Position numbers and translations under genes: made by a program. The notes beneath the pieces are model-generated. The model did no database searches, was not told the origin of the DNA, and worked only from the letters and a program-made list of their open reading frames with translations. Source: a virus. Taken from it: a stretch of 46,781 bases of DNA. How positions within the stretch are numbered: the stretch's first letter is position 1; each line of letters starts with the position of its first letter. The stretch covers positions 1-46,781 of the IMG/VR virus record IMGVR_UViG_3300027708_000113; one strand, written 5' to 3'. Shown here piece after piece: positions 6,733 through 9,197 of this stretch.

Positions 6733-7104
6733 ATGAGTGAAGAATTATACATTTTAGACAATCACAAAGAGAACATGCTAGATGCTTTAAAGAAAACATT
6801 AGGCATTGTTAGTTCAGCGTGTATAAAAGCTGGTATAAGTAGAGGCACTCACTATAATTGGCTAAAAGAAGACTATATATACAAATCACGTGTTGATGAA
6901 ATTGCAGAAATGGCAATTGATTTTGTAGAAACTAAAATGTTTGAGCAAGTTAATAACGGTGATAGCGGTTTGATTAAATACTACCTATCTACTAAGGGGA
7001 AGAATAGGGGTTACGTCGAAAGAACCGAACAAAGACAAGTTGACGAAGAAGGCAAAACAGTTAAACAAGTAATGATTATTAACGGCAAAGAAGTAGAGTT
7101 TTAA
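6733..7104 (+). CDS. Putative small terminase subunit
   Basis: A 123-residue protein. Residues 14-45 form a helix-turn-helix (ALKKTLGIVSSACIKAGISR then HYNWLKEDY) of the kind that starts phage small terminases, followed by a helical oligomerisation region (EIAEMAIDFVETKMFEQV, then SGLIKYYLSTKGKNRGY) and a charged tail. Small terminases recognise phage DNA and load the large subunit onto it. Position directly before the HNH gene and large terminase fits; in the ancestral arrangement the two terminase genes were probably adjacent. Confidence 0.75.
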   Translation: MSEELYILDNHKENMLDALKKTLGIVSSACIKAGISRGTHYNWLKEDYIYKSRVDEIAEMAIDFVETKMFEQVNNGDSGLIKYYLSTKGKNRGYVERTEQRQVDEEGKTVKQVMIINGKEVEF

Positions 7105-7137
7105 TTTTTTATGGTGGTGCAATTGTGGTAAAAACAC

Positions 7138-7145
7138 TATGTTTG
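7138..7145 (+). promoter_or_regulatory. Bacteroidetes-type -7 element before the HNH gene
   Basis: TATGTTTG matches TAnnTTTG and ends four bases before the ATG at 7150. A private promoter is common for inserted homing-endonuclease genes. No good -33 element at the expected spacing is seen. Confidence 0.45.
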
Positions 7146-7149
7146 CAAC

Positions 7150-7710
7150 ATGAAAGAAATATTTTAAAAATTTGAAAATACAAATTACGAAGTTTCTAAT
7201 TTTGGCATTGTTAGAACTATACCTCATATTGTAATCAAATCAGACGGAAAAATACACCCAGTAAAACAAACATATTTAAAAGCAGCTAAAAATAAAAAAG
7301 GATATTTAAAAGTAGGGTTATCTATTAATGGTAAATTAAAATCTTTAAGCGTACATAGATTAGTAGCAATTTGTTTTATACCAAACGAATTAAATAAGCC
7401 GCAAGTAAATCATATAAATGGAAAAAAAACGGATAATAATTATTTTAACTTAGAATGGTGTGATAATTCTGAAAATATTTTACATTCATACAAAATTGGT
7501 TTAACTAAAAATATTTACGAGCCATGTAAAGACAAATCAAATTTTAAAAAAGGTATAGAGCAAAAGTTTGCAAAACTTGATAATAATAAAGTAAAAGAAG
7601 CTAAACTATTAAGAGAAAGCGGTTTAAGTTATCAAAAAATAGCAAACAAATTTTTAGTTAATAAAAAAACTATGATTTACGCAATCAAAGGTATTACATG
7701 GAAAAATTAA
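7150..7710 (+). pseudogene. NUMOD4-HNH homing endonuclease with a stop at codon 6
   Basis: The frame from the ATG at 7150 runs 187 codons but has TAA at 7165-7167, after MKEIF. The rest is intact: a NUMOD4 DNA-binding segment (KFENTNYEVSNFGIVRT), a full HNH domain (HRLVAICFIPN, then QVNHINGKKTDNNYFNLEWC and the SENILHS helix), and a C-terminal helix-turn-helix (GLSYQKIANKFLVNKKTM). No in-frame ATG, GTG or TTG lies between the stop and the HNH core. It is either inactivated, read through, or started at an unusual codon. It sits between the terminase genes, has its own -7 element and overlaps the large terminase start by 13 nt. Its neighbour carries a 42-nt insert in a highly conserved motif, as expected for a homing target. 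Confidence 0.8.
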
Positions 7711-9197
7711 AACAAATAGTATTCGCTCCTTTTCCCAAACAAGAAGAATTTATAAACGCTGTTTTAAGCGGCAATTATAGTTTTGTAATGTTTGGCGGAG
7801 CGATACGATGATTAGGCGGTTGTAAGTAATTGCAGCCGCCAAAATTAAGTGGTGGAAAAACAGTTGCTTTGCTTTCATTATTTACATTGCTTTCTAAAAT
7901 TTATGCAGGTAGCAGGTGGGTAATTGTCCGAAAAGACATTCCTACAATAAAACGAAACCTTTACCCAAGTTGGGAAAAAGTAAAGCCAAGCAACTTTATT
8001 GAAAAAGATGCAAGCGATAGCAACCAACAAACAGTAACATTTACCAACGGATCACAACTTATATTCTTTGCGGAAAACTTTGATACTGATAAAGACTTAA
8101 ACAGATGGAAGGGATTAGAAACTAATGGTATCGGGTTTGAGGAAATAAACGAATGCCAGCAACAAAGTTTATTCAAAGCATTTGAAAGGGCAGGAAGCTA
8201 CGTAATACCAAACGCAACTAATCAGCCAAAACCAATAGTTTGCGCAACGTGTAACCCTTCATTTGGTTGGGTACGAGACTTAGTTTATTTGCCTTATAAA
8301 GAATATACATTAAAAACCTCATGGCATTATATTCAAAGTCGCATTTATGATAATATTCCACTTTTGGAAGCACAACCCGATTATTTACCTTCACTAAAAG
8401 CCAATTTAAACAGATATGAGTACGAAGTATTTGTTGAGGGAAATTGGGATGTTCAATTAAAAACAGGTGGTGAGTTTTTAAGAAAATTTGAATTAGATAA
8501 GCATGTAAAATATATTTCTTACAACCCAAATACAACTGTTCATATTTCAATTGATAGCAACGTTTATCCTTATATTGCAATAACAATTTGGCAATTAGAA
8601 AAAATAAATAATTGTTGGAATGTTAGGCAAATAGAAGAAATACCATGCGAAGACCCTTATAATACTTCAAGCCAAGCAGGGAAAAAAGTAGCATCATGGT
8701 TAAATAATATTAAATACACCGGATCAGTTTATTTATACGGTGACAAATCAACAAAAAATAGAAATAATATTGATGATAATAAACGTTCTTTTTTTCAAAT
8801 ATTTTTAGAGCAAATACAGCAAGCAAAATACAAAACCGTAGATAAGTTTTTAAGTCATGCTCCAAGCGTTTCAAGTATTGGGGATTTTTTAAATGCAATT
8901 TTAGACGGAGAAATAAAAGAAATAAATATTGAAATAGGGGAACATTGCAAAAAATCAATATCAGATTATATTGAAACCAAAACCGATAAAGACGGCACAA
9001 TGCTAAAAGCAAGAACACCACACCCAACTATTAAAGGGGTAACAATGGAAAAAAACGGGCATCTTTTAGATAGCTTTAAAGATTTTATTGTGCAATGTTT
9101 TTACGAACAATATAGAACGTATTTGAATAGGTTTAACCAAGAACCAAAAACAGCCCCTAAGATTATCTCCCGAACAGAACACCAATTTACAATGTAA
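7698..9197 (+). CDS. Large terminase subunit interrupted by a 42-nt insert in Walker A
   Basis: ATP-driven DNA-packaging motor and nuclease. Codons from the ATG at 7698 give MEKLKQIVFAPFPKQEEF and end FVMFGGAIR before TGA at 7809. The same frame resumes at 7851 with GGKTVALLSLF. Omitting 7809-7850 yields FGGAIRGGKT, a normal phage Walker A, and a protein of about 485 residues, normal for the family. Downstream are a Walker B (NGIGFEEINE), a CNPS coupling-like motif, and nuclease-domain acidic residues (HISIDSN, LYGDKS, HLLDSFKDF), all apparently intact, so the gene looks under selection. A downstream-only product from TTG 7830 would lose half the P-loop. How the insert is bypassed or removed is unknown. 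Confidence 0.85.
7809..7850 (+). other. 42-nt stop-containing hairpin insert inside the terminase Walker A motif
   Basis: Fourteen codons in the terminase frame beginning TGA TTA GGC GGT TGT AAG and containing TAA at 7827-7829. Bases 7815-7823 and 7832-7840 pair to form a 9-bp stem (GGCGG with CCGCC at the base, two G-U pairs near the top) with an 8-nt loop. The exact borders are ambiguous by one base because CGA or CGT would both give Arg at the junction. A stop right after the last conserved codon, a hairpin, a short gap and an adjacent homing-endonuclease gene recall T4 gene 60. Matched take-off and landing codons (CGA versus AGT) are absent. Confidence 0.85.

Follow-up and report, generated by a model that had tools for sequence, protein, structure and literature searches.

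Stop-bearing inserts in the Walker A motif of phage large terminase genes suggest a mobile endonuclease cassette with a ribosome-bypassed gap

Introduction

How can a phage make its large terminase protein (TerL) from a gene whose Walker A motif is interrupted by stop codons? The question is raised by the window, by which we mean the whole 46,781-base viral record analysed here, a metagenome contig like all other records in the analysis. Its terL gene (7698-9197; this and all other window features lie on the + strand) reads FVMFGGAIR, TGA (7809-7811), TAA (7827-7829) and then, in the same frame, GGKTVALL, and stays open to 9197. An earlier note made from the letters of the window had described a 42-nt in-frame insert with two stops within the Walker A motif, and had offered translational bypass, RNA excision or a recently broken gene as explanations. 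A known comparison is phage T4 gene 60, whose 50-nt bypassed gap adjoins a homing endonuclease gene; there a stop follows the take-off codon, and a take-off hairpin is present (PMC5009743; PMC11194080).

Results

The insert and its hairpin in the window

Downstream of the terminase small subunit gene terS (6733-7104; PHROG terminase small subunit, E 2e-6), the 5' part of terL (7698-7808, within an ORF at 7698-7811) runs to the Walker A sequence ...FGGAIR and ends in CGA (7806-7808), the proposed take-off codon, which is directly followed by a stop (CGA TGA). The insert occupies 7809-7850, as delimited by the sequence and by comparison with relatives, and the remainder of terL (7851-9197), beginning with GGKT and open to its stop, matches the PHROG terminase large subunit (E 3e-18) and is present in a single copy. 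Three other IMG/VR contigs (L002, L003 and L004) are identical to the window across the site, so the insert is no assembly error of the window contig, and the earlier description of it holds.

Folding places a hairpin at 7815-7840, with a stem pairing 7815-7825 with 7830-7840 and a GUAA loop at 7826-7829, and its folding beats 200 of 200 shuffled sequences (z -4.1). The earlier note had recognised this hairpin and put it at 9 bp; counting two G-U pairs, the stem has 11 bp. An A-rich tail (7841-7850), recognised by comparison with other hairpin inserts, ends in AGT (7848-7850), the proposed landing triplet. AGT does not match CGA, a mismatch correctly noted before; in most relatives the two codons do match. 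The 3' arm CCGCCAAA (7836-7843) is complementary, too, to TTTGGCGG (7791-7798) in the Walker A coding DNA farther upstream, and this alternative stem would enclose the take-off codon.

A search of Rfam gave no match in 7000-8200 at E-values up to 1, and no tRNA gene was found in the window. A group I intron or an intein was rejected, since an insert of only 42 nt with no Rfam match holds no ribozyme core or splicing domain.

Inserts recur at one base in related terL genes

The earlier note had pointed to related terL genes as the place where a shared or variable insert would be seen. Three homology samples yielded 224 readable related loci, of which 51 (23%; 12/79, 15/67 and 24/78 per sample, with some few contigs possibly counted more than once) carry an insert at the same base, a proportion that describes these lineages rather than all terminases because the samples were queried with insert-bearing genes. 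Pattern scans supplied further alleles beyond these samples. The insert always lies between the codon after Ile (normally the Arg of Walker A) and GGN GGN AAR. Lengths of 4, 6, 7, 10, 11, 39, 41 and 42 nt occur and represent all three frame classes: among 39 distinct insert alleles, the length is divisible by three in 33, with one base over in 4 and two in 2. The 16 distinct insert sequences include no open in-frame insertion. TGA, TAA and TAG are all found directly after the Arg codon, and most alleles have one of them there (two pattern scans required a stop; the homology samples and gap scans did not).

Most frequent is a 6-nt "stop hop" with matched Arg codons on either side, CGN-stop-CGN. 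CGN is the triplet before GGN in 33 of the 39 alleles, including all 25 of the 6-nt stop-CGN alleles, the alleles of 7, 10 and 11 nt and all but one of the six 39-nt alleles; it was demanded by one pattern scan, the other searches being free of it. In every matched case a CGN-to-CGN hop restores the Walker A reading. The CGN landing triplet is absent from the window, L139, L243, L206 and the 4-nt alleles. Before the insert, 38 of 39 alleles have a CGN codon and none has AGR, although one pattern allowed AGR there, whereas 38 of 125 uninterrupted alleles have AGR at this Arg codon (p 1e-5); in L243, GCC precedes the stop. The site reads CGG CAG TGA GGC in L206, whose 6-nt insert falls outside both the CGN-to-CGN hop and the hairpin class.

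A wide-gap scan returned mostly chance matches, the real ones being window relatives and L139, and a last scan for short inserts gave no new allele. A pattern scan of a genome collection gave seven matches, none of which reads as terminase. The best matches in the phage collection were less than 60% identical, and in each of the four cultured-phage regions examined terL is annotated as one continuous gene. The distant cultured matches, mainly Flavobacterium and Bacteroides phages, suggest that the hosts are Bacteroidota.

The hairpin class

Inserts of 39-42 nt (the window, L139, L187, L189, L215 and L243) are built alike, with a lead of 3-6 nt, then a stem of 10-11 bp closed by a GNRA loop, and lastly a tail rich in A; no hairpin was found in the 4-11-nt inserts. 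Among the four lineages compared, each arm has just 2-6 of 10 positions in common, but the stems pair all the same, and L243 forms 8 of its 10 pairs. The GNRA loop was spotted after folding in lineages that may have a common origin, and it carries no probability here. The triplet before GGN is AGT in the window, AGA in L139 and AGG in L243, none of them CGN. We considered take-off from the Ile codon for this class, which would suit L243 (ATT to ATC) and the window only in part.

A nuclease gene and a mosaic block beside the insert

Between terS and terL the window carries an endonuclease gene (7150-7710) with Pfam NUMOD4 and HNH_3 matches and a PHROG HNH endonuclease match (E 8e-39). An in-frame TAA at 7165-7167 (codon 6) indicates that its product is probably inactive, and the copy in L004 has a frameshift; the nuclease therefore seems to decay while the insert stays. 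Intact HNH relatives also exist, for example in L207 and L092. Decayed pieces of the gene are apparently kept in L012 and L187, as judged by eye. To the left of the HNH gene, a Walker A-like remnant coding for YGGAI (7110-7124) was found through TWYGGNGGNGCNATH, which occurs twice in the window, there and in terL, against 0.02 chance matches expected; it is possibly a trace of an earlier terL copy. In L084, L096 and L100, a first terL 5' copy ending in the FGGA of Walker A is followed by an HNH gene and then by another terL 5' copy, which carries the insert. Of 33 insert alleles, 7 have an HNH gene directly before terL, as against none of 110 uninterrupted alleles (p 2e-5, indicative only, as the alleles are related and the searches favoured insert alleles); most insert alleles have no HNH gene adjoining terL.

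A tree built from 151 TerL C-terminal parts shows 30 changes of insert state, at least 24 of them forced by well-supported branches; this quick tree has some uncertain long branches and is unrooted, so that gain and loss are indistinguishable on it. When insert alleles on different backgrounds are compared, most pairs are 90-100% identical over the nearest 30 upstream bases (L060 and L063, 77%) and mostly 66-89% alike farther downstream. Compared with their nearest uninterrupted siblings, insert alleles are 73-90% identical just upstream and mostly 92-100% downstream. Because the identity pattern reverses between the two comparisons, the exchanged block ends at the insert or a few bases past it, and the insert and the terL 5' end transfer as a single block between terL backgrounds.

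The remainder of terL is intact

Frame-breaking changes downstream of the insert, which the earlier note had set against a functional gene, were sought in the relatives and none was seen: in all 33 insert alleles holding at least 350 downstream codons, the frame is open to the stop. All 18 insert-bearing records have a single terL, and no second intact terL was found in these records, which may be fragments. Where computable, dN/dS downstream of the insert resembles that of uninterrupted pairs; low dN/dS is weak evidence here, because the inserts are mobile and perhaps recent in each lineage. Two terL genes have intein-like features elsewhere: L103:71-2239 combines a stop-hop insert with an apparent C-terminal intein (Pfam Intein_splicing, E 1e-8, just under the cut-off), and in L299:4001-5605, whose Walker A is uninterrupted, a CFAAGTLI...VHNC segment in the C-terminal part looks intein-like by eye.

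Discussion

We consider it likely that the inserts belong to a mobile endonuclease cassette with a ribosome-bypassed gap, resembling T4 mobA/gene 60. The proposal draws on inserts that recur at one position, a mosaic block, a link with HNH genes, a truncated duplicate and an intact single-copy terL remainder, all read from the sequences; from these we infer a cutting site, protection by the insert and ribosomal bypass. The window allele would be a cassette of the HNH endonuclease gene, the terL 5' end and the short Walker A insert. The nuclease of active relatives probably cuts terL at Walker A where the gene is uninterrupted; repair would then copy the cassette into the cut gene, and the insert would shield the newly made copy against renewed cutting. 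Since TerL must still be made, the ribosome probably takes off at the Arg codon just ahead of the insert, passes over the insert and takes up reading again at GGN GGN AAR. In most alleles a second CGN codon is available for re-pairing of the peptidyl-tRNA, and in the 39-42-nt alleles a conserved hairpin would occupy most of the gap. The earlier note missed the role of the neighbouring HNH gene, the mobility of the insert and its short stop-hop relatives.

Among its three options, bypass is the best supported, because the inserts occur in all frame classes, usually start with a stop, usually lie between matched Arg codons and precede an intact terL remainder. A merely broken gene is unlikely, given inserts in about a quarter of the sampled related terL genes and no second frame break. 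A variant of that idea, which we regard as improbable, is that the cassette breaks terL selfishly and the defective genomes are packaged by TerL from co-infecting intact phages. It would accommodate the finding that phages identical in their TerL C-terminal proteins differ in insert state, and low dN/dS could date from the time before insertion, but it does not predict CGN on both sides of the insert, CGN (in one allele GCC) to the exclusion of other codons before it or a kept hairpin stem and loop, and none of the 33 long downstream frames has a second disruption. Readthrough of the stop or ordinary frameshifting, giving a TerL with a few extra P-loop residues, would suit the 6-nt alleles, which keep the frame, and the 4-nt CAGC alleles, which a single +1 shift could read. 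Since three frame classes occur, one and the same frameshift or readthrough event cannot account for every allele, and an open sense insertion at the site was seen in no terL found. Readthrough, recoded stops and simple frameshifting were accordingly rejected for the family, in which all three stops are used, and some such event is very unlikely to explain the inserts.

Excision of the insert at the RNA level, for instance through cleavage and ligation at the hairpin, is brought to mind by the 39-42-nt inserts, which are mostly hairpin; against it stand the 4-11-nt inserts without one, for which we know of no RNA removal mechanism, and the lack of any Rfam family match, and we hold it to be highly improbable. 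Even less can be said for a TerL made in two pieces by translation restart. A TTG at 7830 could begin the second part in the window, but the 6-nt alleles have no start codon between the stop and GGK, so the restarted piece would lack Walker A, and we give this reading almost no weight. The chance of a sequencing or assembly artefact is negligible too: although every record is a metagenome assembly, the same site and the same insert families are found in many separate contigs, four of them with the window's own sequence.

Several features recall T4 mobA/gene 60: an essential phage gene is interrupted by a short non-coding insert, the take-off codon is followed by a stop, and there is a hairpin as well as an adjoining homing endonuclease gene with a proposed protection from cutting (PMC5009743; PMC11194080). 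Here, by contrast, the gene and the nuclease are others, many unrelated lengths share one site, the most frequent form has 6 nt and no hairpin, the codons are for Arg rather than Gly, those of the window are unmatched, and the bypass in terL is a proposal from sequence. The terL inserts would work like the T4 cassette, yet we do not class them as a member of it, given the unmatched window codons. Synthetic E. coli stop hops, in which nine bases with matched codons flanking a stop yield one amino acid, have the same matched-codon layout as the CGN-stop-CGN alleles, but the latter lie in natural genes, and a 2016 review knew of no natural stop hops (PMC5009743). The byp elements of Magnusiomyces capitatus mitochondria are likewise inserted blocks skipped in translation, with codons that do not always match, but they occupy 81 sites over most mitochondrial genes (PMC5009743), whereas the terL inserts keep to one site in one phage gene. 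As with free-standing phage homing endonuclease genes (compare PMC10448857), the nuclease gene bounds the exchanged block and adjoins its presumed target; unlike them, protection is proposed to come from an insert that needs translational bypass. Streptomyces phage Hau3 also has a terminase gene proposed as a bypass candidate, but it is linked to a UUA codon (PMC5009743) rather than to a stop-bearing insert. Our literature search, with subscription papers mostly outside its coverage, found no report of stops in a terminase Walker A motif.

We think it reasonably likely that terL Walker A in a large group of uncultured phages is a hotspot for bypass-dependent nuclease cassettes that recur in roughly one in four of the sampled genes; among them would be the first stop hops known from nature and a covarying GNRA-hairpin bypass element. 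To our knowledge, proven programmed bypass in phages is essentially one case, T4 gene 60. A large natural set at one site, with many gap lengths and codon pairs and with and without a hairpin, would allow direct tests of the rules of take-off and landing. It also carries a warning, as gene finders will call insert-bearing terL genes broken. For the biology of these phages, it would show how an essential gene can harbour a selfish nuclease in its active site and still survive.
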